DNA from: a virus
IMG/VR virus record: IMGVR_UViG_3300008120_006850
Location: 1-44,398 of that record
Reading direction: 5' to 3' (one strand)
Length of the DNA: 44,398 nucleotides
Each line of letters begins with the position of its first letter. Position 1 is the stretch's first letter. The notes beneath the pieces were generated by a model. The model saw only the letters and a program-made list of their open reading frames with translations. It did no database searches and had not been told where the DNA came from. This document shows, one piece after another, positions 1 through 44,398 of the stretch. The position numbers and the translations under genes were made by a program.

Positions 1-1488
1 AAGTAATACTTTTTGTACTTTTTGACGTTGATCATAAAATTCATATTTTTCCCATTCTTTAGCATCAGCATGCTTTTTAGCTAGTTTACGAAGATCTTTA
101 CGTTCATCGAACCATTTTACTAGAATTTCTGGAATAACACCTTGAAATGACTGATTATACATTACTCCATTACTAGCAATACTGTAATTGGAAGATTTCA
201 ATAGTTGAGTAAACTGTTCTTTTGTATATGAAGCCGATCCAACCTGAATTGTATCAATCTCACCCTTCATATATTTTTCAAAATCCCAATTCTCAGCTTT
301 AGCTATTTTGGTTTCAGGTGAAATGTTAAGACTGATGATGATATTCGGATACATTGATGTGAGATCCAAGTCAAACACCCAGTCATAACGACCAGGAATA
401 GGATCTTTAACGTATGCGCCTTCAAATCCTTCTTCACCTTGTTCCATCTGGTTTTCATATTCTTCTCTACCATCAACAGGTTTATTTTTAGCCACTTGAC
501 CCTTACGACGAAGATACATAAGAATAGCACCTTCGATGAATCGTGAACTCATTGTAAAACAATCATAAGGTACGTGTCCTTTGTGACAGATAGCTCTTGC
601 TTGTTCAATAAATTGAAGTTTCTTCTCCAAGGCAACAATGATCTTTACGTCATTCAAGTTATATTCAATATACTTGTTTAGATCACTCTTATACAAATCA
701 TCCAAACTACCATGATAGGTAATCTTTTCCATACCCACCACTTTCTTGCCGATTGCACCCAATGCATAACTTGGTTCTTGTTTGATATTCCACTTCTTAT
801 ACAAAACCATGTAATCAATAAATGAAACACCTGCTACAACGATCTTACCACTCCAATCGTTCTTATAACAAACATTAATTGGACTCAATCGTTTAGCCTC
901 ACGATCACTCAATACACGTTTGATTCGATTAAATACGTAAGGAGTATCGAATTCATCAATATTCCAACCAGTAGCAATTGTTGGTTGAATTTCTTCCCAC
1001 TTTGTCAAAAAGTGCATCAGTAGACTTGATTCGTCTTGAAACCCACGAACCTCTACATTTTCTTTTTTATAGTCTTCTAGACGACGTTCCTTATCCAAAA
1101 TAAACGCAGTATACTGTTCTGCAGCTGCATCATATAATGCAATTGCAGTAATTTCTTTATCAGCTTCATCTACTTTTGGAAATCCACCTTCGGTACTAAC
1201 TTCGATATCATAATAAACAACACGATGACCTACAGATGAATCATCACTGTCTTCATAGGCATCAATCAAAACCCGAGTTTCAGCTGGAACGTCGCTTTCA
1301 AATAGACTTGGATCTTTAGGACTGAACTTATATACCTTTTCCAGTTCATCACCATAAATACTCTTATACATACCACCCTTACGTTTACGGTAAGCATATG
1401 GTTGATATGGAAACTTTACATAACCTTTCTTATCGTCCCACAAATGGACCGTATTGTCCTTCTTCGAAATGAAAATATTTTGATACAT
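1..1488 (-). CDS. Family B DNA polymerase (T4 gp43-like), 3' end cut by window edge
   Basis: The reading frame starts at ATG 1488 and runs off the left edge without a stop, so 496 N-terminal residues are visible. The 3'-5' exonuclease motifs are present: YYDIEVST (Exo I, Asp94/Glu96), WNIDEFDTPYVFNR (Exo II, about 175-188) and YNLNDVKIIVALE (Exo III, Tyr276/Asp280). Polymerase motif A, DLDLTSMYPNIIIS, follows at about 373-386. The order and spacing fit proofreading replicative polymerases of the T4 gp43/RB69 type (about 900 aa), so motifs B and C should lie beyond the window. It would be the main phage replicase, working with the clamp loader, helicase and SSB genes further right. It is the last visible gene of a three-gene minus-strand unit, 10 bp after the small gene upstream. 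Confidence 0.95.
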   Translation of the reverse strand, partial: MYQNIFISKKDNTVHLWDDKKGYVKFPYQPYAYRKRKGGMYKSIYGDELEKVYKFSPKDPSLFESDVPAETRVLIDAYEDSDDSSVGHRVVYYDIEVSTEGGFPKVDEADKEITAIALYDAAAEQYTAFILDKERRLEDYKKENVEVRGFQDESSLLMHFLTKWEEIQPTIATGWNIDEFDTPYVFNRIKRVLSDREAKRLSPINVCYKNDWSGKIVVAGVSFIDYMVLYKKWNIKQEPSYALGAIGKKVVGMEKITYHGSLDDLYKSDLNKYIEYNLNDVKIIVALEKKLQFIEQARAICHKGHVPYDCFTMSSRFIEGAILMYLRRKGQVAKNKPVDGREEYENQMEQGEEGFEGAYVKDPIPGRYDWVFDLDLTSMYPNIIISLNISPETKIAKAENWDFEKYMKGEIDTIQVGSASYTKEQFTQLLKSSNYSIASNGVMYNQSFQGVIPEILVKWFDERKDLRKLAKKHADAKEWEKYEFYDQRQKVQKVLL

Positions 1489-3444: not shown

Positions 3445-3660
3445 ATGGATCAATTTGTTACAACAGTAAAACTTAATCAAGAATTATATAATCAGTTTAA
3501 AGAACTGAATATAAGAGGCAAAATATCTTTTCAAGATTTTGTCAATAAATGTCTAGAAAGATATTTAAACGATTCTGACTTTCAATCTGAGATTAGCGAA
3601 AGCATTTCACAGAAGTTAAGTTTTAATGCTCCATTTTCATTATCAAAGGATTCTAAATGA
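3445..3660 (+). CDS. Ribbon-helix-helix (Arc/CopG-like) regulator
   Basis: This is a 71-residue protein from ATG 3445. The layout is strand-helix-helix: MDQFVTTVKLNQELYNQFK, then a turn (NIRGKIS) and FQDFVNKCLERYLND. The alternating polar strand 'TTVKL' followed by 'FQDFVNKCLERYL' is the CopG/Arc pattern, and the remaining 20 residues look like a flexible tail. An in-frame GTG at 3418 would add a low-complexity extension translated from the palindromes, which I consider wrong. The twin palindromes directly upstream suggest autoregulation. The TGA overlaps the ATG of the next gene (ATGA), so the regulator is coupled to the glycan operon it may control. Confidence 0.75.
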   Translation: MDQFVTTVKLNQELYNQFKELNIRGKISFQDFVNKCLERYLNDSDFQSEISESISQKLSFNAPFSLSKDSK

Positions 3661-4208: not shown

Positions 4209-4209
4209 T

Positions 4210-5864: not shown

Positions 5865-5865
5865 T

Positions 5866-7197: not shown

Positions 7198-7198
7198 T

Positions 7199-9363: not shown

Positions 9364-9364
9364 T

Positions 9365-10372: not shown

Positions 10373-10376
10373 ATAT

Positions 10377-16095: not shown

Positions 16096-16096
16096 C

Positions 16097-17311: not shown

Positions 17312-17313
17312 TT

Positions 17314-19285: not shown

Positions 19286-20079
19286 AAAAGACAAAAATAG
19301 GTATAATTGGTTATGGTTACGTAGGTAGGGCGTTTGATAACTTTTTTAAAAATCATTATGATGTATCGATTTACGATCCATCGTATATAATGTCTTGTAC
19401 AAAAGAAGATATCAATAAATGTGATTTAGCCGTTATATGTGTACCTACGCCTGAAAATGCTGACGGTAGTTGTAATACCAGTATAGTAGAAGAAACGATA
19501 CAGTGGTTGAATACTCCGTTAATACTATTGAAGTCTACAGTTGAAATTGGTACTACTGATAGATTGATCAAAACTTACAATAAAGAAATCGTATTTAGTC
19601 CAGAATTTGCCGGTGAATCAAAATATTGGACTCCGGATGGATTTACCAATGATGTAAAACAAACTCCGTTCTTTATCTTTGGTGGTAAAAAAGAATTGTG
19701 TTATAAATTGATAGAAATCTATACACCAATAACAGGCCCAAGCAAAACATATAGAGTTACGGATCCAATCAATGCTGAAATTGCAAAGTATGTAACAAAT
19801 ACACATTTAGCAATGAAGGTTGCTTATTGTAATGAAATATACGATCTATGTGAAAAGTTAGGTACCAATTACTATGAAGTGCGTGATTTGTGGTTATTGG
19901 ATCCTCGTACAACCAAATCACATACAGCTGTATTTACGGGAGAACGTGGATTCGGCGGTAAATGTTTTCCAAAAGATACAAAAGCTATGGTTAAATTGGG
20001 TGAAAAAGTTGGCATTGATCTATCTATATTAAAGACAGTACTAGAAAGTAACAAAGAACAATTGAAAAAGAATATATGA
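19282..20079 (+). CDS. Short UDP-glucose/GDP-mannose dehydrogenase, C-terminal domain missing
   Basis: This is a 265-residue protein. GIIGYGYVGRAF (7-18) binds NAD, AVICVPTPENADGS follows, and LKSTVEIGTTDR is the conserved 'KST' strand. FSPEFAGES, AEIAKYVTNTHLAMKVAYCN (catalytic Lys169) and GERGFGGKCFPKDTKA, with the catalytic Cys228 and Asp232, are all in place. It ends shortly after, without the third domain that binds the UDP end in normal enzymes (about 390-450 aa). Either this is a natural two-domain form or the substrate site is completed by another protein. It would oxidise a hexose to a uronic acid nucleotide for the glycan pathway. Confidence 0.85.
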   Translation: MKKTKIGIIGYGYVGRAFDNFFKNHYDVSIYDPSYIMSCTKEDINKCDLAVICVPTPENADGSCNTSIVEETIQWLNTPLILLKSTVEIGTTDRLIKTYNKEIVFSPEFAGESKYWTPDGFTNDVKQTPFFIFGGKKELCYKLIEIYTPITGPSKTYRVTDPINAEIAKYVTNTHLAMKVAYCNEIYDLCEKLGTNYYEVRDLWLLDPRTTKSHTAVFTGERGFGGKCFPKDTKAMVKLGEKVGIDLSILKTVLESNKEQLKKNI

Positions 20080-20453
20080 ACTTTACCGATTTTAATATTC
20101 CTATGATATGTTGGGTAGCATTTGTCATGGTCGTTTGGTTTGAAAGTGATATCGTTACTACGATTGCTAATTTAACCAATACGAGAAATCTTTTAAAAAT
20201 AAACGAGTTTAGTAAATATAAGTTGGAAATAGATGTAATGTCTAATTATCCAAACTTTCTTTATAGTATGTATCCAGGCTATTTAACTAAACTATTATCA
20301 TGTCCAATATGTTTATGTTTTTGGACAACACTATTCTCTGTTAACTTACTGGTACTTGCATATGGATATAATCCATTATTTGCTTATTTATTATTTCCAA
20401 TCAACTATATCAGTAGTTTGTTTTTATATTTAATAGTTAGAAAACTGTTATGA
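20076..20453 (+). CDS. Small membrane protein with CPICLCFW motif (DUF1360-like)
   Basis: This is a 125-residue protein with three probable membrane helices: IPMICWVAFVMVVWF near the N-terminus, then LLSCPICLCFWTTLFSVNLL (about 83-102), and YLLFPINYISSLFLYLIV near the end. The CPxCxxFW motif at the head of the second helix is the signature of DUF1360-type membrane proteins, whose function is unknown. The gene lies between the dehydrogenase and the FkbM methyltransferase with 4-bp overlaps on both sides. It is the only clear membrane protein seen in the glycan operon, so it could anchor or transport the product, but this is inference. Confidence 0.65.
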   Translation: MNFTDFNIPMICWVAFVMVVWFESDIVTTIANLTNTRNLLKINEFSKYKLEIDVMSNYPNFLYSMYPGYLTKLLSCPICLCFWTTLFSVNLLVLAYGYNPLFAYLLFPINYISSLFLYLIVRKLL

Positions 20454-21079
20454 TTCACATAAACTATTTTGACATGGGATTGTGTTATGATGCAAAAGAA
20501 ATAGAACTTTTTGTAAATCATGTAGTTCCCAAATTTAAAAATATTACCTATACTGTATATGGATTTGAAGCAGATCCAGATTCCTATAAAGTAATTAAAG
20601 ACCGTTATAAAGATAATACGAATGTTAATATTAACAATCTTGCTATTTCAAATTCAAAAGGAAATGTAAAATTATACAAGTCCGATAATGGAGGATTAGG
20701 TAATTCAATTTTTCCATCAAAAAATAATGTAAGTCCTTTTAAATATTATGAAGTAGAATCAGATACATTTTCAAATTGGTTGATTGAAAATAACGTCGAT
20801 TTAAAAAATAGTGTTAATATACTAAAAGTTAACATAGAAGGTGCTGAATTATATTTGTGGGAAGATTTTAAATTAAATAATTTAAGGAAAGACTTTCATA
20901 TATTATGTGGAACTACTACACATGATATAAATAAAGTAAGAGAACTAGAACCGAAGGTTTCTTACTATTATGAACTTGTAAAAGAATTAAATGCCGAGTT
21001 AAGTTTATTTACAGGTACACATTGTAAAAAATCTGTAGATTGTTTAACAGATTTACTCAAACCAATTTTAGAACGATGA
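20450..21079 (+). CDS. FkbM-family SAM-dependent methyltransferase
   Basis: This is a 209-residue protein. YTVYGFEADPDSYKVIK (about 34-50) is the FkbM '~~~fE~~p..~..l' signature following the SAM strand. INNLAISNSKGNVKLYKSD and GGLGNSIFPS match the family's central region, and VNILKVNIEGAELYLWEDF (about 123-141) is the highly conserved 'lK~DiEG.E~~vl' segment. The glycine-rich motif I is reduced (YFDMGLCYDAKE), so the N-terminus may be shortened compared with typical 240-280 aa members. It probably O-methylates a sugar or small acceptor at the end of the glycan pathway. It overlaps the genes on either side by 4 bp. Confidence 0.8.
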   Translation: MIHINYFDMGLCYDAKEIELFVNHVVPKFKNITYTVYGFEADPDSYKVIKDRYKDNTNVNINNLAISNSKGNVKLYKSDNGGLGNSIFPSKNNVSPFKYYEVESDTFSNWLIENNVDLKNSVNILKVNIEGAELYLWEDFKLNNLRKDFHILCGTTTHDINKVRELEPKVSYYYELVKELNAELSLFTGTHCKKSVDCLTDLLKPILER

Positions 21080-30726: not shown

Positions 30727-31785
30727 TTACAATTTAAAGTCGTCGAACGCACCTTCTGTGATAGTATTATCAACGCCTTTTACATAACTACTCAATTCAG
30801 TTTCTTGAGGAGCTACTTGTAGTTTCTTACTATCATAGTAACTATCCAACCATCCACTCAGTGGATTAGTCTTAGCATTAGAATATAATTTCTTAAATCC
30901 AAGACTACTTAGTCTATTATTAGCCAGCCATTCAACATAGTGTTTTAGACTTTCACTTGTTAGACCTACTAGATTACCCTTACTAAATAGATAATCTGCC
31001 CAATCTTTTTCTGCATTTACTGCCATTTCATAAGCGGCATAGATCTTGTCTTCGTTTTTCTTAACAACGTCTTGGAATCCTTCATCTGGATTGTTAATCC
31101 AATTCTTCATAATGTTTTGGGTAATAGCAACATGAAGATTTTCATCACGACTGATAAACTTAATAATCTTACTATTACCCTCCATCTTTCCACGATATCC
31201 AAAGTAGAAACTACAAGCAAATGATACGTAGAATATCAACCCCTCAGTAATTTGAGTAGCTAATACTGCATCAAACAATTGTTGTTTAACATCATCTGAC
31301 GGCGCTAGTAGTTCATCGTATTTTTTACTAATAGCCTTAGCTCTCTTCACAATTTCTTGGTCTTCCAAAACACTATCAAAAAACTTGGTAGCATCTGGAT
31401 AAACATTGTTAAGAATGTATGTATAACTGTTACTGTGAATAGTTTCAAAAAAACTCCACGCATTCATGCAAATTTCTAATTCACTATTAGTAACATGTTT
31501 CATAAGTTCATGTATGCTACGACTCAACATGCTATCAGTCATAGTTTGAAACTTAAGGTTACTATCAAATACAAATCGTTCTTCGGGAGAAAGATTCTTA
31601 TAATCGCTGATATCTTTTACAAGTGAAACTTCTTGGGGTCTCCAGAAAAAATTCAATTGTTGGTCATATAGTTCATAGAACTTTGGATACTTTATCAAAT
31701 CATATCGTTGTAGCGATAGATCCTCTCCAAAGAACATTGGATTTCTTAACTGGTCTATGTTTTTTTTATTCAATACTGTTTTCAT
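30727..31785 (-). CDS. nrdB: Class Ia ribonucleotide reductase small subunit
   Basis: This is a 352-residue protein of normal NrdB length. The iron ligands and radical region are present: MTDSMLSRS (Asp), AWSFFETIHSNSYTYILNNV, with Glu/His ligands and the tyrosine equivalent to the E. coli Tyr122, ITEGLIFYVSFACSFYFGYR and ISRDENLHVAI with Glu and His. The C-terminal GAFDDFKL is the flexible tail that docks on NrdA. The ribosome site AGGAGGAAGAG directly before the ATG is the strongest Shine-Dalgarno in the window. It follows nrdA by 12 bp, forming an nrdA-nrdB unit that makes dNDPs. Confidence 0.95.
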   Translation of the reverse strand: MKTVLNKKNIDQLRNPMFFGEDLSLQRYDLIKYPKFYELYDQQLNFFWRPQEVSLVKDISDYKNLSPEERFVFDSNLKFQTMTDSMLSRSIHELMKHVTNSELEICMNAWSFFETIHSNSYTYILNNVYPDATKFFDSVLEDQEIVKRAKAISKKYDELLAPSDDVKQQLFDAVLATQITEGLIFYVSFACSFYFGYRGKMEGNSKIIKFISRDENLHVAITQNIMKNWINNPDEGFQDVVKKNEDKIYAAYEMAVNAEKDWADYLFSKGNLVGLTSESLKHYVEWLANNRLSSLGFKKLYSNAKTNPLSGWLDSYYDSKKLQVAPQETELSSYVKGVDNTITEGAFDDFKL

Positions 31786-31797
31786 CTCTTCCTCCTA

Positions 31798-34086
31798 TTA
31801 TAGAGCACAAGCGCCACTGGCACAACCAGATTCTTCTTGTACTTTTGGTTTTGCTTCTACTGCTTTTGTTTCCATAGCAGTTTGTTTGTCTCCGTCATCA
31901 GTATTAGCATAATACAAGTTCTTTAGACCATATTTGTAAGCCAATAACATGTCCTTAATTACTTCTTGAACAGGAACTTTATTTTTATCATAACGAGATG
32001 GAATATAGTAAGTATTTGTACTAATACTCATATCCGTAAATTTTTGAATAGCCGCCGCTACCTTCAAGTAACCTTCATTACTTGGCATATCAAAAGCAAA
32101 AGTATAATCATCCTTGTACTTGTCGATATTAGGAACTACCACAGGCAAAATGTTGCTTTTGCTGCCCTTGAAGCTAATAGCACTACGAGGTGGTTCAATA
32201 CCATTAGTAGAACTTTGAATTACACTACTAGATTCTACAGGCATACAAGCTGTAAGTGTACTGTGTCTCATACCATACTTCTTGATTTCTTCACGTAGAG
32301 CTTCCCAGTCACAATGTAGAGGTTCTGTAATAAACTCATCTACATCCTTCTTATAAGTATCTATTGGCAAAACTCCTTGACTAAACTTAGTACGTTCAAA
32401 CTTCTCACACTTACCAACTTCTTTAGCCATTTCAACACTCGCCTTAATTAGGTGATAACTGGTCTTTTCCATCCACTTAGCAACAAAGTTTGGAGACTTT
32501 GGATCCCAATACTTCAAACCTTCTTTAGCCAATAGAGCAGCCAAATTGCTTACACCTACACCAAGACTACGACGTTTAGTAGCAAAGTTCTTTGCTGCCG
32601 GTACAAAGTATTCTTGATGATCAATCAAAGCATCCAACATTCTGACAATGATGTCACATACACTTGACATTTCATCATCGTCTTTGATCTCCAACCAATT
32701 TAATGCTGCCAATACACAAACACCGATTTCACCATTTGGATCATTAACGTCATAAATCGGAGTCAATGGATGATTTACCTCAAGACATAGATTGCTTGTA
32801 TCTACTTGATCCAACCAACTACCGTGCTCATTAGCATGATCTACAAACATTGTATAAATACGGCCTGTTTCAAGACGTTCTTTGGCAAGTAGTCCCATCA
32901 ATTCACGAGCAGGTACTTTCTTTTTAAGCTTAATGTTCTTGTTAGCTTCAGCCTTTTCATACTTTTCTTTGAAACCTTCCATACCAAAGGTATTCCAAAG
33001 TGATGGACATTCGTGATAGCTGAATAGTGTTACATCTTTATTTTGTAGAAATCTTTCAAAGATTAACTTATCCAAACCAACACAATAATCTAGTTTACGA
33101 ACACGATTATCATCGGTACCTTGGTTGTTCTTCAATACAAGAATATCTAGAATATCATAATGGAACCAAGCAAAGTTTACCGTAGCACTACCACCACGAA
33201 TACCATTTTGGTGACAACTCTTTACCGTAGATTCAAATGCTTTAGCGAATGGAATTGGACCTGTGTGTACAACTTCTCCGTTACGAATAGGAGCGTTTGT
33301 AGCACGTAGTCTGGATAGATTCAATCCAATTCCATAACGACTAGCGGTAGCAAAACCTACAGCACTATTGTTGCTGAAAATACTACGTAGATCATCATCT
33401 ACTGTAAACAGAGAACAACTAGCGTAACTCTTCATAGGAGTTCTTACACCCGCCATAATAGGCGTTGGCAGATTAATCTTATGCTTACTAAAGTAGTTAT
33501 AAGCCTTCTTTACATAATCAAGTCTCTTTTCTTTATAGTCCTTAAAGAAAGTCATGGCAATAAGCATATATGCAAACTGTGGAGTTTCATAAATTGTCTT
33601 AGTTACACGATTTTGTACCAAGTACTTATCACACAACTGTTTGATACCAGCATAAGTGAAATTAAAATCACGATCATGCTTTAGAAACTCGTCTAGTTTA
33701 TCAAACTCTTGTTTACTATACCAATCAAGAATACTACCATCATAAACCAAAGCATCAATATTAGTCTTTACCAGATCATATAGTTTAGGTGGATTTTTAC
33801 CTCCCCAAACATTCTTTCTCAATTGATAATTTAACAGACGAGATGCTACGAATTGATAATTTGGTTTTTCTTCTGTAATTAGATTAGCAGAAGCCTCAAT
33901 CAACATAGAATGAATATCTTTGGATGTCATTCCATCAAAGAATGACAAATGAGCATTCATTGCAACTTCTTCAAAAGAAACACCTTTTATATCCTCCGTA
34001 GCCCATTGTAAGATCTTGTTGATCTTGTCTGCGTTGAATTTCTCAGTATTACCATTTCTCTTCTTTATAAAAATTTCTTTATTCAT
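31798..34086 (-). CDS. nrdA: Class Ia ribonucleotide reductase large subunit
   Basis: This is a 762-residue protein. An ATP-cone-like N-terminus (FIKKRNGNTEKFNADKI) is followed by the alpha/beta barrel. YASCSLFTVDDD holds the first redox Cys, DTSNLCLEVNHPL the finger-loop Cys and Glu, and GVCVLAALNW the partner Cys. MPVESSSVIQSSTNGIEPPR is the family signature. The C-terminal ESGCASGACAL carries the shuttle Cys pair. No intein or inserted endonuclease is seen. A terminator-like hairpin lies within the 30 nt before the start codon, and there is no Shine-Dalgarno sequence there, unlike nrdB. Confidence 0.95.
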   Translation of the reverse strand: MNKEIFIKKRNGNTEKFNADKINKILQWATEDIKGVSFEEVAMNAHLSFFDGMTSKDIHSMLIEASANLITEEKPNYQFVASRLLNYQLRKNVWGGKNPPKLYDLVKTNIDALVYDGSILDWYSKQEFDKLDEFLKHDRDFNFTYAGIKQLCDKYLVQNRVTKTIYETPQFAYMLIAMTFFKDYKEKRLDYVKKAYNYFSKHKINLPTPIMAGVRTPMKSYASCSLFTVDDDLRSIFSNNSAVGFATASRYGIGLNLSRLRATNAPIRNGEVVHTGPIPFAKAFESTVKSCHQNGIRGGSATVNFAWFHYDILDILVLKNNQGTDDNRVRKLDYCVGLDKLIFERFLQNKDVTLFSYHECPSLWNTFGMEGFKEKYEKAEANKNIKLKKKVPARELMGLLAKERLETGRIYTMFVDHANEHGSWLDQVDTSNLCLEVNHPLTPIYDVNDPNGEIGVCVLAALNWLEIKDDDEMSSVCDIIVRMLDALIDHQEYFVPAAKNFATKRRSLGVGVSNLAALLAKEGLKYWDPKSPNFVAKWMEKTSYHLIKASVEMAKEVGKCEKFERTKFSQGVLPIDTYKKDVDEFITEPLHCDWEALREEIKKYGMRHSTLTACMPVESSSVIQSSTNGIEPPRSAISFKGSKSNILPVVVPNIDKYKDDYTFAFDMPSNEGYLKVAAAIQKFTDMSISTNTYYIPSRYDKNKVPVQEVIKDMLLAYKYGLKNLYYANTDDGDKQTAMETKAVEAKPKVQEESGCASGACAL

Positions 34087-34188: not shown

Positions 34189-35571
34189 TTATTCTTCGTC
34201 ATCACTATTGTGAACATTCCACTTGGACTTGAGTGCTTTCTTAACTTGATTTTCACCGTCCATCATTTCGTTAAGAATACCCATACCCTCCCTAGAATTC
34301 TCACTATAGATTTCAATTTGACCACAACCAGCGTTCATCTTACTTGGAAATGTCAAACCATCAGGACCGAAACGATTCTTAATTACATGGAATCGTGCTG
34401 TATTTGCTTGTTTATCATTTACCTTACGACTAAGTGACATAACAAAGTCAGCAGTCATAATCTTACGATAACTGTCAGCGATGTTGTTAGCCTGAATAAT
34501 ATCTTCATCCATAGCAGCACGGTTACTCTGTGAAGCACTCCAAATTGGAACTTGTAATTCACCAGCTACACCACGTAGTTCTTCATAAATACCACCAGCT
34601 TCGCTATAACTGTTACTATTACGTTCACTTTGTGATGGACGTAGAATATCAGCATAGTCAACGATGATCATATCTACTTTGGTACCAAGTACTGCCAATC
34701 GTTCACAATGTGCTTTTAGACTATATGCACTTACAGTCTTGATTGGGAAATACTTAATCTTTAATTTACCAGGCACTTCCGCAATCTTATTTCTTACGAT
34801 ATCTACGTTGTTACGGATATTTTGGAAATCGATGCCGGTAAAACAACTATCATAACGAAGACCAACGTAGTTCTCATTCAACTCTAGAGTAAAATGTACT
34901 ACATTCTTACCTTGTTTCATAGCTTCAGCACCCAACTTACTTAGTACCCAACTCTTACCGCTACCAGCACAAGCTGTGATAATACCAAGTTCACCAGCTG
35001 CCAATCCACCATCCATAATTGTATCAATTTCAACCCAATTGGTTTTAACACAATTACGACTCATTACACTCATACGCTTTTCAACGTCTTCAGTATAATC
35101 GTGACCGATATTACGTTCCATACCAGCTTTCATAGCTTGGTCTACAACGTGTTTGATCTTTTCATATTGACCGATCTCTAGTAGATCTGCACTTTCAATA
35201 ATAGCATTCTTTAGCTTTTGATTTTTACAGAATTCTAGAAACTGTTCCTTTACAAACTTTAGATCGTTATCAGTAACCTTCTGATAAATCAATTTAAGAT
35301 TGTCTACAATGCTCTTTTTAAGAACATCGTCGGATACAGAATCAATTTTAATTTTAAATACTGTTAATGTAGGCAAATCTTTATACTCACTAAAGTATGC
35401 TAGACTTTCCTTTAAAATCCATTTATTAGCGTCACTTTCAAAAAATTCAACTTCAATAATATCATGAATACGTTCAATAAACGAACGATCTGATATTAGG
35501 CATGAAATGCACTTGAGTTGAAAATCCCGACCATATTTAATTAATGAATCAATTGCTTTTTTATTTTCCAT
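34189..35571 (-). CDS. Replicative DNA helicase (T4 gp41/DnaB-like)
   Basis: This is a 460-residue protein. The N-terminal helical domain of about 165 residues precedes a RecA-like motor: TNWVEIDTIMDGGLAAGELG, ACAGSGKSWVL (Walker A, about 200-210), VDMIIVDYADILRPSQ (Walker B), IWSASQSNRAAM (motif H3) and HVIKNRFGPDG with the arginine finger. The acidic C-terminus (NVHNSDDEE) resembles interaction tails of phage helicases. It should unwind ahead of the family B polymerase. A weak promoter lies just upstream. Primase is not seen in this window. Confidence 0.93.
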   Translation of the reverse strand: MENKKAIDSLIKYGRDFQLKCISCLISDRSFIERIHDIIEVEFFESDANKWILKESLAYFSEYKDLPTLTVFKIKIDSVSDDVLKKSIVDNLKLIYQKVTDNDLKFVKEQFLEFCKNQKLKNAIIESADLLEIGQYEKIKHVVDQAMKAGMERNIGHDYTEDVEKRMSVMSRNCVKTNWVEIDTIMDGGLAAGELGIITACAGSGKSWVLSKLGAEAMKQGKNVVHFTLELNENYVGLRYDSCFTGIDFQNIRNNVDIVRNKIAEVPGKLKIKYFPIKTVSAYSLKAHCERLAVLGTKVDMIIVDYADILRPSQSERNSNSYSEAGGIYEELRGVAGELQVPIWSASQSNRAAMDEDIIQANNIADSYRKIMTADFVMSLSRKVNDKQANTARFHVIKNRFGPDGLTFPSKMNAGCGQIEIYSENSREGMGILNEMMDGENQVKKALKSKWNVHNSDDEE

Positions 35572-35631: not shown

Positions 35632-36696
35632 TTATTCTACGAAACTGTTTAATTTACCGAAACATTCATTTAGCCAAATGTGATAATTGGGGATATTATT
35701 CCACATTTTGTCTTCTGTAATTAGCTTTGAAAAACTAATTTTATCAATTTTCTTGACGGGGGTATTAATAATTTCTTCTACACGTAACTGTGTAAAAGAC
35801 TGTATCTGAGTATTTTGTAACTGCATCAATTCGTAATTGCGTTCAAGCAATAACTTATTGTTCAATACAGTTTCATAAATTTTATACTTACTTTTATAAT
35901 TCTCGGAATAATTATAGATTTCTTGCAATGAAGTTTGTTGTTCATTTGCTAAAAATGGAAATGCTTTACTAATTCTTTTTAGACCAGCCCCATCTAAACC
36001 AGGAATATTGTCACTCGTATCACCTTCCATAATTCTATAGAAAATAAAGTTATTACAAGTAATTCCATATTCATCAACAATTTCTTTACAACCAAAAATC
36101 TTCTTTTTAGTAGGACTCCAGATTTTAATCTTGTCACTAGCCAATTGTAGGAAATCTTTATCAGTAGACATAATGGTTACATTACTGTCTTTGAATGTAT
36201 CTTTAGCTAAATAAGCTATTGTATCATCGGCTTCTATTTGATCAATTGCCATAACTGTAACAGGCAATGTGTCCAAATAATTTACTGTACGAATTAGTTC
36301 TTTCTTGAAATTGACGGATTCAATTTGTGAAGAAGATAATTCTTCATAATTACGGTTAAGTTTAATATCTGTTTTTCTTCCATTCTTATAACCAGGATAT
36401 ATCTTTCTACGCTTTTGACTACCACCTTTACCATCAAACACAATGATAACTCTAGTAGGAGAAAGTAATTTAATTGCAAAGCCAACGCTCTTTAAAAATC
36501 CAGCAATACCACCCGTATGCAATCCGTCTTCATTCAAAGATGGAATAGCCATAAAACTACGAATATAGGTATTAAGACCGTCAACAAGGAGGATGTCAGA
36601 ATTGGTATTCTTTTGGAGACCCGTTCCAACATCCTCCTTGATATTTTCAAAGAGAGAAAACAGTCTTTTCTTTTCAGATGAACTGAATCCACTCAT
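35632..36696 (-). CDS. 5'-3' exonuclease/RNase H (T4 Rnh-like flap nuclease)
   Basis: This is a 354-residue protein. ILLVDGLNTYIRSFMAIP holds the first acidic residue, RVIIVFDGKGGSQKRRKIYP the second with the basic helix, and IDQIEADDTIAYLA the Glu/Asp pair. MSTDKDFLQL adds the next aspartates, and RIMEGDTSDNIPGLDGAGLK is the helix-3-turn-helix DNA-binding segment. It should remove RNA primers and process flaps on the lagging strand. Its ATG is 4 bp after the uvsX stop, with no separate promoter, so it is in the uvsX unit. Confidence 0.92.
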   Translation of the reverse strand: MSGFSSSEKKRLFSLFENIKEDVGTGLQKNTNSDILLVDGLNTYIRSFMAIPSLNEDGLHTGGIAGFLKSVGFAIKLLSPTRVIIVFDGKGGSQKRRKIYPGYKNGRKTDIKLNRNYEELSSSQIESVNFKKELIRTVNYLDTLPVTVMAIDQIEADDTIAYLAKDTFKDSNVTIMSTDKDFLQLASDKIKIWSPTKKKIFGCKEIVDEYGITCNNFIFYRIMEGDTSDNIPGLDGAGLKRISKAFPFLANEQQTSLQEIYNYSENYKSKYKIYETVLNNKLLLERNYELMQLQNTQIQSFTQLRVEEIINTPVKKIDKISFSKLITEDKMWNNIPNYHIWLNECFGKLNSFVE

Positions 36697-36700
36697 GTTT

Positions 36701-37843
36701 TTATTCTTCTGTTCCAGTAGTTCCTTCGTCAGTATCTACTACAGCATCTTCGACGATCTGACTATTAGGATCTTTGTACTTCATAATAACAGCATCACAA
36801 ATCTTCAAGTAAATTTCTTCACCTAGTTGTTTGTCAGACTGCATTGTTGTTACAAAGTCCTTGGATTGGAACTTCCATTCAGTACCGTCGTCTTTCTTGT
36901 ATGTGTAATAAGCACCACCTTGTTTAACTAGATTTTGTTCTTTTAGAACTTTAATCCAGCTACCATAGTCAGCAATTCCACTATCAAAATAGATATCAAA
37001 ACTTGCTTGACGTTGTGGTGGTCCCATACGATTTTTCACAACAACCGCTTTACACTCATTTCCGATGATTTCCTCACCCTTCTTGAGTTTACCCGTGTTA
37101 TTCAAACGTACACGTACACTACAATGATATGCCAGAGCTTTACCACCACTTACTACATACTTGTCACCAAATGCCATAGCATTTAGATTCTGACGTAGTT
37201 GATTGGTAAATACAGTAAGAACCTTTTGACGACCAATCATAGTAGTAATCTTACGCATTGCTTTACTGATAATAATACTCTTACCAGTTGCGTAACCATC
37301 CTTACCATGATCACTTTCTAGTTCTGCCTTTGTTGATGCTGCTGCTACAGAATCAACAATGATTGTTAGAATACGATCTTTGTTGCTCTTACGAACAATT
37401 GCAATCATCTTCTCCATCTGAGCAAAAATATCTTCAACGGTTTCACATTGAACATATAGAAGTTTCGATAGATCTACACCCAAACTCTTCCAGAACTCAG
37501 GAGCAGCTGCGTTTTCAGTATCAATTACTACCGCAACTCCTCCCTTTCTTTGGGTATCAGCAACAACGTGAGCTGAAACTAGACTCTTACCGGTTCCTTC
37601 CAAACCGTTGAATTCTACCATCTTACCAACAGGCAATCCACCGTGAGGACGATTACTAATTGCTAGATCCAAAATAGAAGAACCTGTACTAATCCAGTCA
37701 CTAATTTCTGCTGGATTTTCTTGTTCATCTAGAAAGTAAGCAATCTTGCCACCATCCTTGTTTGCTTTGTTTAGTTCGTTTGCTAACAACTCAACTAATT
37801 CGTCTCGTTGTCCGGTTTCTTTCGTAACACTTTTTTTTGCCAT
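36701..37843 (-). CDS. uvsX: RecA/UvsX recombinase
   Basis: From ATG 37843 the protein has 380 residues (starts MAKKSVTKETGQRDEL). A longer frame to 37885 would be read through the terminator hairpin and is rejected. Motifs are VEFNGLEGTGKSLVSAHVV (Walker A, about 80-87), AVVIDTENAAAPEFWK, TIIVDSVAAAS (Walker B), TVFTNQLRQNLNAMAFGDKY (the loop L2 region) and KNRMGPPQRQ. The tail is acidic (VEDAVVDTDEGTTGTEE), as in RecA and UvsX. It forms the strand-exchange filament for recombination-dependent replication and repair, with SSB from the gene just upstream. Confidence 0.93.
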   Translation of the reverse strand: MAKKSVTKETGQRDELVELLANELNKANKDGGKIAYFLDEQENPAEISDWISTGSSILDLAISNRPHGGLPVGKMVEFNGLEGTGKSLVSAHVVADTQRKGGVAVVIDTENAAAPEFWKSLGVDLSKLLYVQCETVEDIFAQMEKMIAIVRKSNKDRILTIIVDSVAAASTKAELESDHGKDGYATGKSIIISKAMRKITTMIGRQKVLTVFTNQLRQNLNAMAFGDKYVVSGGKALAYHCSVRVRLNNTGKLKKGEEIIGNECKAVVVKNRMGPPQRQASFDIYFDSGIADYGSWIKVLKEQNLVKQGGAYYTYKKDDGTEWKFQSKDFVTTMQSDKQLGEEIYLKICDAVIMKYKDPNSQIVEDAVVDTDEGTTGTEE

Positions 37844-37859
37844 AACGTATATAACTAGA

Positions 37860-37891
37860 AAGCCGGTGGGGTATAAAAACTCCACCGGCTT
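37860..37891 (-). terminator. Strong hairpin terminator between the SSB and uvsX genes
   Basis: The stem AAGCCGGTGG-like arm (37860-37869) pairs with CCACCGGCTT (37882-37891) around an AT-rich loop. On the minus strand it follows the SSB stop by 12 bp and ends in TTTCTAG; the plus strand also carries a T-rich tract. The uvsX ATG follows 17 bp later with no promoter between, so read-through must supply uvsX. Confidence 0.75.
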
Positions 37892-37902
37892 ATTTTTATT
37901 TT

Positions 37903-38673
37903 TTAGGAGTTAAACAAGTCATCAAATGCTTGTTCTACCTTAGCTGGTGTTGCAAATGGAGCTTCATCATCATCGGCAGAAGCAGCTGTTTCTGTTGGAA
38001 CAGAAGAATCCGATGTTGTTTCTGGATTCAACCACTTATCCATCACTTCCTTGAGTTCATCATAAGAAAGTTCTGGGAATAGATCCAGAATGTTAACTTG
38101 TGCCTTTAGAGCATCAAGCAACTGAGTATTCTTTGGATCAATAGCAACACTTACATTTGGCTTAACACGAATGCTGGTTTCTGGGAAACTAGCACCACCT
38201 TCAGCAGTCTTGAATTCAACAACGATGTCACGACCACTGGTTAGATCAGTAATATCACCAAAATCAGGATCGCTGATAATAGATAGAAGTTCCTGATATA
38301 CTTGCTTACCAAATCCCCAGAACTTTACACCTTCGTGTTCTTCGCCACGAACAATTACTGGAGCAAATGTACGCATCTTTGGTTCCATCTTGCGACCCAT
38401 CTGCCAATCTTCCTTAGAACCAGTTTTCTTCAAACGGTTACTAAACTCAACGATTGGATCTGGACGACCGAAACTATCGGGAGATAGATAAGTCTTGTTA
38501 TTGATATTGTAGTGAAACTTTAGCTCAATGAAAGGATTCTCAGGAGCATACTTGTAGGGAACAATACGAACTACTTGTTTACCGGGCTTTGGTTTCCAAA
38601 TCAAGTTGGATTTTTGATTTGTGTTTGAGAGTGAGCTCAAACGGCTCTTTAGCTTACTAATGTCTAATGCCAT
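37903..38673 (-). CDS. Single-stranded DNA-binding protein (T4 gp32-like)
   Basis: This is a 256-residue protein. The N-terminal LDISKLKSRLSSLSNTNQKS is a basic self-interaction region like the gp32 'LAST' segment. LIWKPKPGKQVVRIVPYKYA, PENPFIELKFHYNINNKTYL and FGRPDPIVEFSNRLK are typical of the gp32 core in marine T4-like phages. The zinc-binding His/Cys set of T4 gp32 is absent. A Pro/Thr/Ser-rich linker leads to an acidic tail (ADDDEAPFAT, FDDLFNS), the usual partner-binding end. The 70-nt leader contains a hairpin and an A/U tract that resemble the gp32 autoregulatory operator. Confidence 0.88.
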   Translation of the reverse strand: MALDISKLKSRLSSLSNTNQKSNLIWKPKPGKQVVRIVPYKYAPENPFIELKFHYNINNKTYLSPDSFGRPDPIVEFSNRLKKTGSKEDWQMGRKMEPKMRTFAPVIVRGEEHEGVKFWGFGKQVYQELLSIISDPDFGDITDLTSGRDIVVEFKTAEGGASFPETSIRVKPNVSVAIDPKNTQLLDALKAQVNILDLFPELSYDELKEVMDKWLNPETTSDSSVPTETAASADDDEAPFATPAKVEQAFDDLFNS

Positions 38674-38793: not shown

Positions 38794-39189
38794 TCAAATT
38801 TCTGAGATAGAAAACAATTTTAATGGAATTATTTTAACTCCGATATCATTGGTTAATATGATGGAGTTTTTATATAGATCCCAGTTTAATTGAAAATTTT
38901 TATCATATACACCGTTGTTTTCGTCAGCAATTAATTTATTCATTGCATTGAGTGTATATAATGTATTTGTCTGTTTCTTACGATGTATACTTATCGTGCC
39001 TTTATAACGATTGTTTTGTTCACTCTTTTCTACATTGAATGTCAAATATAATTCACGCAAATTATTTTCATTTGCAAATATGAAGATTTTATTATCAACT
39101 AAAGTATATTGTTGACTAATTTCACTCAATACAGAAGTATATTGACTACTGTTTGAAAATGTGCAAAGTAATTGTTTTTGAACGATCAT
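38794..39189 (-). CDS. Hypothetical protein
   Basis: This is a 131-residue protein that I do not recognise with certainty. It has an alternating beta pattern (KQLLCTFSNSSQYTSVLSEI, NKIFIFANENNLRELYLTFN) and a segment GTISIHRKKQTNTLYTLNAM. It has no signal peptide or membrane helix. Its start overlaps the stop of the large 672-residue gene by 4 bp (ATGA). The stop lies about 120 bp upstream of the SSB start. Confidence 0.6.
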   Translation of the reverse strand: MIVQKQLLCTFSNSSQYTSVLSEISQQYTLVDNKIFIFANENNLRELYLTFNVEKSEQNNRYKGTISIHRKKQTNTLYTLNAMNKLIADENNGVYDKNFQLNWDLYKNSIILTNDIGVKIIPLKLFSISEI

Positions 39190-41204
39190 AATGCTATTGA
39201 TGTACCTGATAATTTACCGTAAGGCATTACTAGTATTCTACATCCCAATAACAATATGACTTTACCTTTTTTAGTATAAGAGAAATTTTCTTCTTCGGTA
39301 AAACGTGCATATATTACAGGTCGATATTGTAAAATTGGATCCTCAGCGTTTTTTGGAGCCGGAAGATTTGGGTTAAATAAAATATGGCCTCTTTTATCTG
39401 TAGAAATTTTTATTCCATCCGGTTCATTCTCTTGATTTGTGTGATACTCTACGTCTAGAACTTCATTGGTTTGAATCAAACATTGTACATTTTCGGGTCC
39501 GTAATTTGTTGAATTCAACTTAAAATCCAAACCATATATTGTCATACCAGCAATTTGCTTAGACTCTTCCGTACCATCTAACATATCCATCCAAACAGAA
39601 AATCCTCTTGGCAAGAAATATATTTCTTTATCTAAACCAGGATTGTTTTTGAAAACAGTTTGAACCGAAGCTGCGTTTGCATTTATTAAATCTATTTCTT
39701 CTTGAGAGAATAATACATTTGAATCATTTGTTCGGACTTTTCTGTTTTTAGCGTCTATATTTATAGTATAACCACTACGAATCGTAGTTGGTGATGGTAA
39801 TTTTTCAGTAATTTTAGATAAAAAGTTTGATATTATCTCTGCCCATTTGCCTTTTTCACTACCAAGTTTTGTATGTAAAGTTTTTATACTTCCATATTGT
39901 TGAAATGGTACAGGTGATAACGCTTTTGCCGAACCTTCTTCTGACCAATAGTTACCGTGTTTATACGATATCCAAAATTTTGGTACAGAATTTGCTGTTA
40001 ATGCTAAATCGGCTTTGCCCGTGCCTTTGAGTTTTTCGGCACCATTTACACTGACCCCTGTATCTCTAAATTCGTTAAGTTCATCCGAAATATAAAGTCT
40101 CATAGGAACTTTAATTTCGTTTTTTACAAACCAATCGTTCAAATTTTGAACTTGCATTTGTTCATAACCCAAACCACGAGCTGCTTTAGCTATCAATTCT
40201 ACTTTATCACTGTTATTGGTATAAAATTGATATGCCATTATAGCTCTCTTAAAATCGGTACTTGAAATTGATTTAGCAGTAGACCATTCGGCGATTCTTA
40301 TGTTTGATACTGTTCTTATCTTTTTTACAGTACCAGCATATGTTATTACAAGTTTACCTTCTTTTTTTAGAATATTTTCCAAACCGATATAGTTTACAGG
40401 AGTTGTAAGACCGTATTTATTGTTGCTACCAGGAGAAATCGTTACGTTTGATACATTTTGATTTACATTATTAATAATTTCTTCATCCGTAAATTTTTCC
40501 AATCCTAATTGTCTTAAAACTTCAATATTAACATTATCGGCTTTAATACGAGTTGCTTCTGCTAAAGATCTAATTATTGGTTTCCCATTTGTTTCATCAA
40601 ATACTTGTTCACCAATTAACTCTCCTTCGGAATTGTACCAATTCATTCCTTTTCTGTAAAACCCATACTTTTTGGCTTCATCTACACTATAATTTACTAA
40701 TGGTGTTTGACCTGTTAGTATTGATTGTACACCTACAGCATCTATTTGCTTTTCTTTTGGAGTTCTTTCGTCTTTATCAGTATCTACAACCTTATCAGAA
40801 AGTTCTTGATCAATTGATATATCTTTTGGTTTTTGTTCGTCTGGTTGATAAATAGAATCTGATTCTCCACCAGCCTTTACATCTGGAGGAGGTGTTGTAA
40901 ATATATTAGCATCTGACTTTTTAGGATTTTCAGCAAAGTGAGTGCCTTTATTTACGGCTCTATCTCTATATTCTTTATTTGGAAATGTAACAAGAATACC
41001 ATCTTTGTTGTATGCTTGTCTTTCAGGAAATTTACCAGCTTCAAATAGATTAGCTGTTTTTTCTACGATATAGTCAACGCCACAGCCAGACTTTTCAAGA
41101 TACTCTTGTAGTACAAAAACATGATCTGGGTTACCAAGATCAAAAATACCGTTCTTTATACGACCGTCACAACAAATATCGTTTACTAATGATTTAAAGT
41201 TCAT
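39186..41204 (-). CDS. Large hypothetical phage protein, possible nuclease-like core
   Basis: This is a 672-residue protein. The N-terminal segment (NDICCDGRIKNGIFDLGNPD, then KFPERQAYNKDGILVTFPNK and EYRDRAVNKGTHFAENP) reads as a conserved domain of T4-like environmental phages. Residues about 95-160 are a polar linker (Pro, Asp, Lys rich). The central part contains GKADLALTANSVPKFWISYK with HGNYWSEEG and VPFQQYGS after it: an Asp-x(n)-SxK arrangement that could be a PD-(D/E)XK core, which is tentative. The C-terminal 130 residues are beta-rich (VILLLGCRILVMPYGKL). Both a virion role and a DNA-processing role remain open. Confidence 0.6.
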   Translation of the reverse strand: MNFKSLVNDICCDGRIKNGIFDLGNPDHVFVLQEYLEKSGCGVDYIVEKTANLFEAGKFPERQAYNKDGILVTFPNKEYRDRAVNKGTHFAENPKKSDANIFTTPPPDVKAGGESDSIYQPDEQKPKDISIDQELSDKVVDTDKDERTPKEKQIDAVGVQSILTGQTPLVNYSVDEAKKYGFYRKGMNWYNSEGELIGEQVFDETNGKPIIRSLAEATRIKADNVNIEVLRQLGLEKFTDEEIINNVNQNVSNVTISPGSNNKYGLTTPVNYIGLENILKKEGKLVITYAGTVKKIRTVSNIRIAEWSTAKSISSTDFKRAIMAYQFYTNNSDKVELIAKAARGLGYEQMQVQNLNDWFVKNEIKVPMRLYISDELNEFRDTGVSVNGAEKLKGTGKADLALTANSVPKFWISYKHGNYWSEEGSAKALSPVPFQQYGSIKTLHTKLGSEKGKWAEIISNFLSKITEKLPSPTTIRSGYTINIDAKNRKVRTNDSNVLFSQEEIDLINANAASVQTVFKNNPGLDKEIYFLPRGFSVWMDMLDGTEESKQIAGMTIYGLDFKLNSTNYGPENVQCLIQTNEVLDVEYHTNQENEPDGIKISTDKRGHILFNPNLPAPKNAEDPILQYRPVIYARFTEEENFSYTKKGKVILLLGCRILVMPYGKLSGTSIAL

Positions 41205-41208
41205 CTAT

Positions 41209-41234
41209 TATAAATATAGATATAAATATATTTA
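41209..41234. repeat. AT-rich direct repeat and palindrome between genes
   Basis: TATAAATATA occurs twice (41209-41218 and 41221-41230) and merges into the perfect 12-bp palindrome TAAATATATTTA (41223-41234). It lies between the polymerase-like gene stop and the start of the 672-residue gene. It could be a weak promoter/operator element or simply AT-rich spacer. Confidence 0.4.
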
Positions 41235-42527
41235 CATTTGGACTAATTTCAAATCATTGTAATTATTTCCCTCGTATACCTTAACTTTGAAACGTTTATT
41301 CTTGATAATCTCAATCAAATCCGTTATATCATTTGGGTCTACATTACCAACATCAAACAATATAGCATCATAATTGTATAGTATAGTCGAAATCTGTTTA
41401 CCAGCAGTAAACTTTAAACACGACTGTAATCTGTCCATACCATACTCGGTTTCCGCCGCTTGAATAATATACGCAAACAACTTATTCTTGTTTGGATCAG
41501 CAATATGTTTGTTGGTTATCTTTCTCTTATAAATCGGAGTATTTACATAACCTTTATTTATAAACTGATTCCAGTATTTGTTCTTTAGTTCATCGGTTCT
41601 CTTAAAATAATCTATGTTTATATAGGCTTCATTTATCTGACCATATAAATTGACCATCGTGAGCTTTTTAGCCTTACCAATTAGTTCAGGCGCAACAGAA
41701 TCGGTATCGTAGTACTGTTTAGCTAAATGTTCATAGATAGTTTCTGATTCGGGTACTTTATAATCAATCAGATTGGCTACGATATATGGATGAAATCCTG
41801 TAAAGTCTACCATCATCAAATGACCACCGTTATCATATCTTGATACAAAACTAGCCCTACATCCGTCGTCTTTCTTAAGAGCTACATAATTTACGCCATC
41901 ATATGAATTACTAGGTCTACCAGTTGGATTATAAATGTTGTAATTTGTGTAAACGTATCCATCATATGTACGAGCTTTAAAGTGTTCTTTGAACAGATCG
42001 ACATTAATCTTTAATCCGTTTTTCTCAACCTCATATAAGGTGTCTGTAATTACCTCATTGAAAAACTTAAAACAATATGTATCGGTCTCTTTGTCTGACA
42101 GATCTTCAATTTGTTGAATTTCTGCATCAAAACATTCTTGATGTGTTACATACGGAACAATCAGATTAAAATCTTTGATATTACGATAACTACTTTGTAT
42201 AAAATCTTTACAAGACGAACTCACTTCATCCAAAGTCTCGTTGTTTTCAATAAACCCAAAAATATTGGTATCAATCAATTTACAATCAATCCAGTACTTA
42301 TAAGTTTTTTTGTTTTTTACGTAAACTTCATATGGATTGTTTTCTAACTCTTTCTTGATTTCCTCAAAAGAAGAATTAGTTGATAAATCAGTATGTCCAA
42401 TATTATAATAGTATTTTTCTTTGCTACCAAAATCGTAAATAAACGCAGCAATAACATTGCCACACTTGTTATGGCAATTGTTGTCTCTGGTTATTAACTT
42501 GAGATAAATTTTGGATGAATACTTCAC
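41232..42527 (-). CDS. Divergent family A DNA polymerase-like protein
   Basis: This is a 431-residue protein. The core of a Pol I-type polymerase is seen in order: YNPTGRPSNSYDGVNYVALK (TGR at 202-204), MMVDFTGFHPYIVANLI (motif A, Asp241), IGKAKKLTMVNLYGQINEAY (motif B, Lys287 and Tyr295), FAYIIQAAETEYGMDRLQ (the 'iQg.aAD..k' helix) and LYNYDAILFDVGN (motif C, Asp387). Oddities are His246 at the E. coli Glu710 steric-gate position, Met291 for Phe762, Ile283 for Arg754 and Tyr386-Asp387-Ala388 for His-Asp-Glu. The first 160 residues show no clear exonuclease motifs. The start is GTG with a consensus promoter whose -10 is 6 nt upstream. Confidence 0.8.
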   Translation of the reverse strand: MKYSSKIYLKLITRDNNCHNKCGNVIAAFIYDFGSKEKYYYNIGHTDLSTNSSFEEIKKELENNPYEVYVKNKKTYKYWIDCKLIDTNIFGFIENNETLDEVSSSCKDFIQSSYRNIKDFNLIVPYVTHQECFDAEIQQIEDLSDKETDTYCFKFFNEVITDTLYEVEKNGLKINVDLFKEHFKARTYDGYVYTNYNIYNPTGRPSNSYDGVNYVALKKDDGCRASFVSRYDNGGHLMMVDFTGFHPYIVANLIDYKVPESETIYEHLAKQYYDTDSVAPELIGKAKKLTMVNLYGQINEAYINIDYFKRTDELKNKYWNQFINKGYVNTPIYKRKITNKHIADPNKNKLFAYIIQAAETEYGMDRLQSCLKFTAGKQISTILYNYDAILFDVGNVDPNDITDLIEIIKNKRFKVKVYEGNNYNDLKLVQM

Positions 42528-42561: not shown

Positions 42562-42948
42562 CTAATATCCTCTCCAAAATTGTTTTGGGTTATTTAATAC
42601 ACGATCTATATTTGGAATAACACGTTGTGCTTCACGTATACGATATATGTTATAGTTTACTACACCGACCATTTCTAGTAACTTGCCACTATATACATCA
42701 AATTCTGGACCTGTAATCTTCCAGTTTATTTTAACTTTCGTAAAATAGTTGGAATCGATCATATTATAATCTTTGTAGTTGGTTTCAATTACTTCAAAGA
42801 AATTGATTCTACCAGCAAAAAATCGGCTTATGTAACCCTCGTTATAATCTTTCTGCGTAATTGTAGGCAAATAAGTTGAAGGTTGTAGATATTGATAATT
42901 ATTCAATCCTACAATGTTTCTAGTAGCAAGTGGAGTATCGTATATCAT
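42562..42948 (-). CDS. Probable virion protein
   Basis: This is a 128-residue protein. The sequence (DYNEGYISRFFAGRINFFEV, TKVKINWKITGPEFDVYSGK, then NNPKQFWRGY at the end) resembles small conserved proteins that accompany tail/baseplate genes in T4-like environmental phages; the exact family is not recognised. Its ATG overlaps the stop of the large upstream gene by 4 bp, so both are in one operon. It has no enzyme motif. Confidence 0.55.
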   Translation of the reverse strand: MIYDTPLATRNIVGLNNYQYLQPSTYLPTITQKDYNEGYISRFFAGRINFFEVIETNYKDYNMIDSNYFTKVKINWKITGPEFDVYSGKLLEMVGVVNYNIYRIREAQRVIPNIDRVLNNPKQFWRGY

Positions 42949-44398
42949 ACAGTTACATATTCAATTTTTGAAGTGCCTACACATCTTACTAATGCATTTA
43001 CAACAGTTTCCCATTTACCAGATTCCAAACGATGGTCAACTTCCAATACTTGGAATATTACATTCCCAGGCACATATGGTTTTGGCAAGTTACTAATAGC
43101 AAAACATTGTAGATTTCTAAATGAGAATATTCCATCAAGTGTGATTGATACTTGAAAGTTATCCGCAACACCACTATACTTAGCCGTGTTGTTTTTGAAA
43201 TCACCATCATCCAACATTTGTCTTAATCTACTTTTCATACTAGGAGATAAACACAAATATTTATAGTTGTTTCTGAATCGTGGGTCTTCAAAATCTCCAT
43301 TAGATTCTATGTTTTTAAACGTCATACAAAGCACACCGTTTTTTTCTTTAGAACCGTATACTTGTAAATTAACTATATCATTGTTTTCACTTTCAATTCC
43401 AGCGGTAGCACCAGGTGTTAATGTCGCTAACGATCCACTTTGTTGTTCATATAACTTGTCGAGTTGATACTTGTCTAATCTATCAATAAACTTTAAAAAC
43501 GGAAGATTGTTCAGAGTAGTTATAGTTGCATTTAGATCTGTTACTGTTTTAGCACTTTGTATTAAAGTTCTAGGATCTTGTGATACAAGTGCACTGTTTT
43601 GATTACTAAATAAAACGTTAGTTGCTTGTTCGTTGGTTAAACTTACATCAAAATTGATATTTTTTATTACGTTGTTTGTACTACCCAATTCAAATGTATA
43701 TATCTGTTGTAACATCGAAAAATTAATAGTGTTTTTATCTACAACAGATATAGTGGATCTACCGTTTTCACTAGCACCTTGTACAATTTCAAATTTCCAA
43801 AAATTGCCTACAGATTCGTTTACTACGTTTAGTATTGAAGATAATAAATCTTTATACGCATCTGTACCTTTTGTTTCTGATTTACAGAGTTCAATTATTT
43901 TACTTTTTTTAATATAAATGTGTTTCAAATATCCGTAGTAATACTTTTTATAAGTTACCGTCGTTTCACTACCATTTTTTGTTTTTCTCGTAATTTTCTT
44001 GTCTTCTTTAAAAGGAAATGCAGCCGATCCCTTTTTGTTTGATTTATAATAAAGATAATTAATTACACGATCTAAATCATCACGTATTCTACCTCTTGTT
44101 TTAAAAGTATTTCTAGCAGCATTACATGCCAAATAATAACTTTCCTCTACACTTAAATTATAATATTCTAACGTGGATTTTATTTTTTCTTCTATACCTG
44201 AGTTACGGCTTATTGTTATATCCGCCTCTTGATTTAAAAATTGATTGCCGGTAGTTTCACTACTTGGAAATAAAGCAAAGTTACTTGCTGTTGCTTCACC
44301 TGTTTCTTTATTTATGTTTACTCCGAAAGTATTTATTGTTTGTAAGGTTTCAGCATTTTCAGCTTTTAAATACCCACCCTTGCCTGATATTTTTGAAT
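42945..44398 (-). CDS. Probable baseplate/tail protein, 5' end beyond the window
   Basis: The frame is open from its TAA at 42945 to the right edge (484 codons), so the start lies beyond the window; a TTG at 44132 is not the real start. It is beta-rich and polar (ETGEATASNFALFPSSETTG, LYEQQSGSLATLTPGATAGI), fitting a structural protein. The C-terminal PYVPGNVIFQVLEVDHRLES with GKWETVVNALVR resembles the 'f.V..v.H.i..g.W.T.v.~..R' ending of phage baseplate-hub proteins. It has no catalytic motif. It is coupled by overlap to the small virion-like gene downstream. Confidence 0.65.
   Translation of the reverse strand, partial: SKISGKGGYLKAENAETLQTINTFGVNINKETGEATASNFALFPSSETTGNQFLNQEADITISRNSGIEEKIKSTLEYYNLSVEESYYLACNAARNTFKTRGRIRDDLDRVINYLYYKSNKKGSAAFPFKEDKKITRKTKNGSETTVTYKKYYYGYLKHIYIKKSKIIELCKSETKGTDAYKDLLSSILNVVNESVGNFWKFEIVQGASENGRSTISVVDKNTINFSMLQQIYTFELGSTNNVIKNINFDVSLTNEQATNVLFSNQNSALVSQDPRTLIQSAKTVTDLNATITTLNNLPFLKFIDRLDKYQLDKLYEQQSGSLATLTPGATAGIESENNDIVNLQVYGSKEKNGVLCMTFKNIESNGDFEDPRFRNNYKYLCLSPSMKSRLRQMLDDGDFKNNTAKYSGVADNFQVSITLDGIFSFRNLQCFAISNLPKPYVPGNVIFQVLEVDHRLESGKWETVVNALVRCVGTSKIEYVTV

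Follow-up and report, generated by a model that had tools for sequence, protein, structure and literature searches.

What does a family A-type DNA polymerase do in a phage that already encodes a family B replicase? The question is raised by positions 1 to 44,398 of IMG/VR virus record IMGVR_UViG_3300008120_006850. This whole stretch of 44,398 nucleotides is called the window below, and its 44.4-kb source record is probably a fragment. At 1..1488, on the minus strand, the window carries a T4 gp43-like family B DNA polymerase (PolB) which is cut by the contig end (PF00136, E 7.9e-19). A second polymerase-like gene lies at 41232..42527, also on the minus strand, and forms a single frame of 431 amino acids with zero internal stops, while the opposite (plus) strand is broken by many stops across the same interval. 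Its GTG start is supported by relatives which carry ATG at the same place. The initial annotation, made from the sequence alone, had proposed the pairing of a family A-type enzyme with a family B replicase, and this was borne out.

Proteins of this kind have already been described. Yutin et al. 2024 (Virol J 21:200; PMC11348598) reported divPolA1, a divergent family A polymerase, in 14 phages including Immuto. In the available parts of that paper, divPolA1 occurs beside a regular family A, B or C DNA polymerase and combines an intact palm with a truncated thumb, an inactivated exonuclease and conserved replication neighbours; the authors also infer that it kept polymerase activity and a role in replication. 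The window protein belongs to divPolA1. It is homologous to the founder, its palm holds the catalytic residues of motifs A, B and C, the thumb is truncated, the exonuclease acids are replaced at the motif I and II positions, replication genes follow downstream and the gene is extra to a regular DNA polymerase. A literature search for measured activities of divPolA1 members found none.

As a single sequence, the 431-aa protein has no match in Pfam, PHROGs, NCBIfam or the PDB, and only profiles gave matches. A single-sequence search of IMG/VR returned 33 relatives. The family profile matched at least 581 places there, which makes the family far larger than the 14 phages counted in the available parts of the original description (PMC11348598). 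Six records of the INPHARED phage collection contain relatives. An alignment of 68 members, with identities down to 27%, is the basis of the profile, of all column counts and of the AlphaFold2 input. This profile matches Klenow with E=5.7e-10, and hhalign aligned it to E. coli Klenow with a probability of 98.4 and E 4.8e-14. The Pfam DNA_pol_A model (PF00476) is matched by 46 of the 68 members at E 0.05 or better (best E 1.2e-14). By itself the window protein has no match to this curated model, and like all 68 members it carries His where the steric gate of PolA has Glu, so that it lacks the strict features of PF00476. Both the profile match to Klenow and the AlphaFold2 model described below nevertheless show the protein to be truly homologous to family A polymerases. 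Among close relatives dN/dS amounts to ~0.04-0.10 (Nei-Gojobori, unsaturated comparisons), and on this sequence evidence the gene is under purifying selection.

The catalytic motifs were assigned by hhalign profile alignment to E. coli Klenow, and their conservation was counted over the 68 members; all codons given here lie on the minus strand. The alignment recovers the ordered Pol I motifs which had been read from the window sequence: TGR, motif A, motif B, Q356 (Klenow Q849) and motif C. The TGR motif comprises residues 202-204 (41916..41924), and its Arg, R204, is invariant (68/68), as are R224 and Q356. The catalytic Asp of motif A, D241 (41805..41807), corresponds to Klenow D705, and that of motif C, D387 (41367..41369), to Klenow D882; both are invariant (68/68). 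Motif B, within the O helix, spans residues 287-295 (41643..41669). Its Lys (K287, Klenow K758) is present in all 68 members and its Tyr (Y295, Klenow Y766) in 67 of them, and Gly occupies the Klenow G767 position throughout (68/68). At the position of Klenow H734, His (33/68) and Tyr (35/68) are found in similar numbers. The O-helix Arg of Klenow, R754, holds the dNTP phosphates. Only three of the 68 members have Arg at this position, which is mostly taken by Tyr, Ile, Leu or Met.

The nucleotide pocket differs from that of Pol I in further respects. H246 (41790..41792) takes the steric-gate position of Klenow E710, and the His which the initial annotation had placed there turns out to be invariant (68/68). 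By comparison, in ordinary PolAs related to Immuto gp199 the equivalent place of motif A is occupied by Glu in 80 of 80 cases; these 80 are close relatives of one another and serve as a control for the Immuto-type clade, not for all PolAs. In the available parts of PMC13228545, Glu710 is the sugar gate and residue 762 its helper, with Tyr, Phe and Leu named as variants of the latter; Met is absent from the variants named there. The replacement of Phe762 by Met holds for the window protein (M291) but not family-wide, since Phe is found in 49 of the 68 members and Met in 18, namely in the window's own clade plus a few others; Met762 was thus rejected as a hallmark of divPolA1. Similarly, the Tyr-Asp-Ala reading of motif C (Y386-D387-A388, Klenow H881-D882-E883) is right for the window protein and 9/68 members in all, while the remaining 59 have Tyr-Asp-Ser; Tyr-Asp itself is invariant (68/68).

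The AlphaFold2 model built from the 68-member alignment has a mean pLDDT of 95.6 and a pTM of 0.91. Its best matches in the PDB are the Klenow fragment, M. smegmatis Pol I, Pol theta and Pol nu, with TM scores (query length) of up to 0.76, and every one of the 50 best matches is a family A DNA polymerase; no single-subunit RNA polymerase is among them. The model contains a polymerase palm, the absence of which would have spoken against the initial annotation, and D241 and D387 stand in the same secondary-structure elements as in Pol I. D241 stands at the end of a strand and is followed by a helix, as in motif A of Pol I; K287 and Y295 are within the O-helix equivalent (280-295), and D387 is in a hairpin turn (379-385 / 388-393), as in motif C of Pol I.

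Since no more than ~62% of the chain belongs to the palm and fingers, a TM score of 0.76 needs a match of the N-terminal part as well. Since this part must match Klenow, the N-terminus would be a degenerate 3'-5' exonuclease-like domain, in agreement with the available parts of Yutin et al. (PMC11348598). Superposition on Klenow, hhalign and column counts place it at codons 1-150 (42078..42527, minus strand), with a putative border. The Klenow motif I acids D355 and E357 align with L11 and T13, and D424 of motif II falls in the Lys-rich K73/K74 region; at these compared positions the catalytic exonuclease acids are not conserved across the family. The initial annotation saw no proofreading domain, and this has to be corrected: an exonuclease fold is predicted, degenerate and devoid of its catalytic acids. 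The thumb is nearly absent, because the conserved G171 is separated from TGR by 17-37 residues in all members and by roughly 100 more in Klenow, which leaves a gap of ~80-100 residues.

The surroundings of the gene are strongly ordered. In 113 loci, read as far as each contig extends, the order is orf483, orf128, divPolA1, in some cases orf672, then orf131, gp32, UvsX, FEN and DnaB, optionally followed by NrdA/NrdB. Contig ends excepted, the first recognised gene downstream of divPolA1 in these loci is always orf672 or orf131. divPolA1 thereby keeps a fixed position heading an operon-like set of orf131, gp32, UvsX, FEN and DnaB. In the window, all of these genes are on the minus strand. The conserved upstream neighbours are orf128 (42562..42948, 128 aa), which directly precedes divPolA1, and orf483 (42945..44396), which is cut by the contig end; from its place beside structural genes in Immuto, the product of the latter is possibly a virion protein. 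Downstream, orf672 (39186..41204, 672 aa) is the next gene after divPolA1 in about half of the loci and has no match in Pfam or NCBIfam and no significant one in PHROGs. Then follow orf131 (38794..39189), a gp32-type single-strand DNA-binding protein (37903..38673; PF08804, E 4.9e-13), a UvsX/RecA-type recombinase (36701..37885; phrog_97, E 2.9e-74), a FEN-type 5'-3' exonuclease of the same family as the N-terminal domain of Pol I (35632..36696; PF02739, E 3.5e-30) and a DnaB-like replicative helicase of the gp41 type (34189..35571; phrog_19, E 3.2e-77). Class I ribonucleotide reductase genes (30727-34086, minus strand) come after the replication block, as in Immuto. Elsewhere in the window, a run of ~20 genes on the plus strand (3657-21079) includes several which by eye resemble glycosyltransferases, nucleotide-sugar enzymes and methyltransferases; the annotations of Immuto and Mel-JY01 list comparable genes.

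The 131-aa protein is the constant companion of divPolA1. With orf131 as the query, every locus which extends 4 kb or more upstream also contained divPolA1 (42/42); these loci are drawn from the best 80, a sample which leans toward nearer relatives. In INPHARED, the identical six records contain both genes. The protein bears an HRKK...TNTLYT motif of which HRKK is invariant, and its model reaches a pLDDT of 92.2. Searches assigned it to no family and to no solved relative (chance-level matches only), and its model to no known fold.

The relatives also encode other replication enzymes. PolB was found in 12 of the 20 records searched, including the window record, Mel-JY01 and two large IMG/VR contigs of 157 and 130 kb. 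In Immuto, a full-length PolA takes the place of PolB and accompanies divPolA1. LR756508.1, the 484-kb genome of an uncultured phage, holds divPolA1, split PolB matches (260623-266900), a PolC match (47415-48068) and a DnaG-type primase, and it apparently encodes three DNA polymerase families. Most of the remaining contigs are fragments in which the absence of a gene carries no meaning. All three reference phages (Mel-JY01, Immuto and LR756508) have a gene for a DnaG-type primase, as do four IMG/VR contigs, namely the two largest and two whose divPolA1 is 67% identical to that of the window.

On balance we hold it to be probable that divPolA1 is an accessory, non-proofreading and weakly DNA-gripping predicted DNA polymerase of the gp32/UvsX/FEN/DnaB module, which acts besides the main replicase. 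This reading is supported by the fold, the invariance of D241, K287, D387, Q356, R204 and R224, the low dN/dS and the fixed gene order. The enzyme is an addition and not the replicase, because PolB is present in 12 of the 20 records, Immuto has a full PolA and LR756508 has PolB pieces and PolC. Mechanistically, divPolA1 would carry out distributive synthesis of low processivity and make short patches where gp32, UvsX and DnaB have coated or opened the template. Candidate tasks are to extend primers or D-loops and to close gaps once the FEN nuclease has acted, either before the processive replicase or alongside it. As a putative cofactor, the 131-aa protein could make up for part of the lost grip, and His246 may relax or re-tune sugar selection. 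It is plausible, though speculative, that some ribonucleotides are used or that primers ending in RNA are extended efficiently. Three points count against this accessory role: the loss of R754 could point to weak binding of dNTPs or to another substrate, DNA binding without a thumb may be too weak for unaided synthesis, and the gene neighbourhood does not distinguish the filling of gaps from synthesis during translesion or recombination.

A rival reading is that of a translesion or repair polymerase, exonuclease-dead and with an open active site, recruited to damaged or recombining DNA. The missing exonuclease acids, the altered nucleotide pocket (E710H, the lost R754 and, in the window clade, F762M), the proximity of the UvsX and gp32 genes and the presence of Pol theta and Pol nu among the closest folds would all fit. 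However, a constant place in the core replication block of very different phages exceeds what is usual for a repair gene, and Pol theta and Pol nu have a full thumb and inserts, both of which divPolA1 lacks; we therefore consider this role unlikely. Synthesis of RNA or of mixed RNA/DNA, by a primer maker, a primer extender or a transcription enzyme with His246 as a relaxed sugar gate, is in our judgement still less likely. It draws on the contrast between His in 68 of 68 members and Glu in 80 of 80 ordinary Immuto-type PolAs, and on the motifs of the window clade. In this clade, K-x3-M-x3-Y-G in motif B and D-S/A in motif C look similar to single-subunit RNA polymerases such as T7 RNAP, with K631, M635 and Y639 (motif B) and D812-S813 (motif C). 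Yet most members have Phe and not Met at 762, the Arg which RNA polymerases conserve in the O helix has gone, single-subunit RNA polymerases are absent from the 50 best structure matches, and the three reference phages and four IMG/VR contigs possess a DnaG-type primase.

This resemblance of motifs B and C had also suggested that divPolA1 replaces the primase, which is one sense of the primer enzyme put forward in the initial annotation. Such a replacement is refuted by the DnaG-type primase in complete relatives and in the two contigs at 67% identity. The same annotation allowed for a dead scaffold, that is, a catalytically inactive protein binding primer-template or a partner protein. The loss of R754, E883 and the thumb would be in line with it, but the two Asp that bind metal, the Lys of motif B and the Arg of TGR stayed invariant while most other positions changed, and dN/dS is low; we regard inactivity as very improbable. 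Lastly, divPolA1 and its 131-aa partner might form a dedicated two-part enzyme of T4-like replisomes which, through its His gate, accepts or synthesises ribonucleotides and extends primase-made RNA before the hand-off to an A, B or C replicase. We give this elaboration little credence, although, if true, phages would possess an enzyme whose role parallels that of Pol alpha in eukaryotes.

Replication in T4-like phages is a textbook system, yet a large T4-like group, known mostly from environmental contigs, retains an extra polymerase in its core replication block while the main replicase swaps between families. The invariant His at the sugar gate leads to a specific, testable prediction on ribonucleotide handling, and the constant companion of 131 aa offers a concrete lead to a missing subunit.

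Among known systems, single-subunit RNA polymerases (T7 RNAP and the mitochondrial enzymes) are similar in the Met of motif B, as found in the window clade, and in the Asp-Ser of motif C, but they are much larger, keep the O-helix Arg and fall outside the 50 best structure matches. In the available parts of PMC11348598, divPolA2 is likewise a small PolA-like palm protein which lacks a thumb and accompanies a regular PolB, but it has another N-terminal domain and a variable gene neighbourhood. When the divPolA1 profile was compared by hhalign with single sequences, neither one divPolA2 member nor the regular PolA of Immuto gave an alignment. Klenow shares the fold, the domain order and D705/D882, K758, Y766, the TGR Arg and Q849. 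However, divPolA1 has ~430 instead of 605 residues, a thumb which is nearly gone, replaced exonuclease acids, His for E710, no conserved R754, Tyr-Asp-Ser/Ala for H881-D882-E883 and shorter fingers past motif B. A close counterpart is the founder, gp001 of Flavobacterium phage vB_FspM_immuto, a homologue (tblastn E 6e-35, 96% of the query covered) which is also extra to a regular DNA polymerase and shares the intact palm, the truncated thumb, the loss of the exonuclease acids and the downstream replication genes. It is only 26.7% identical to the window protein, and it accompanies a full-length PolA where the window phage uses PolB; Phe at 762 in Immuto against Met in the window is a clade feature and no difference in kind. 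The available text of PMC11348598 mentions neither the invariant His nor the 131-aa partner, although the 131-aa gene may well appear in its figure of the gene neighbourhood. Judged from sequence comparison, the invariant His at the sugar-gate position and the constant 131-aa partner would be what the present analysis adds to the description by Yutin et al.
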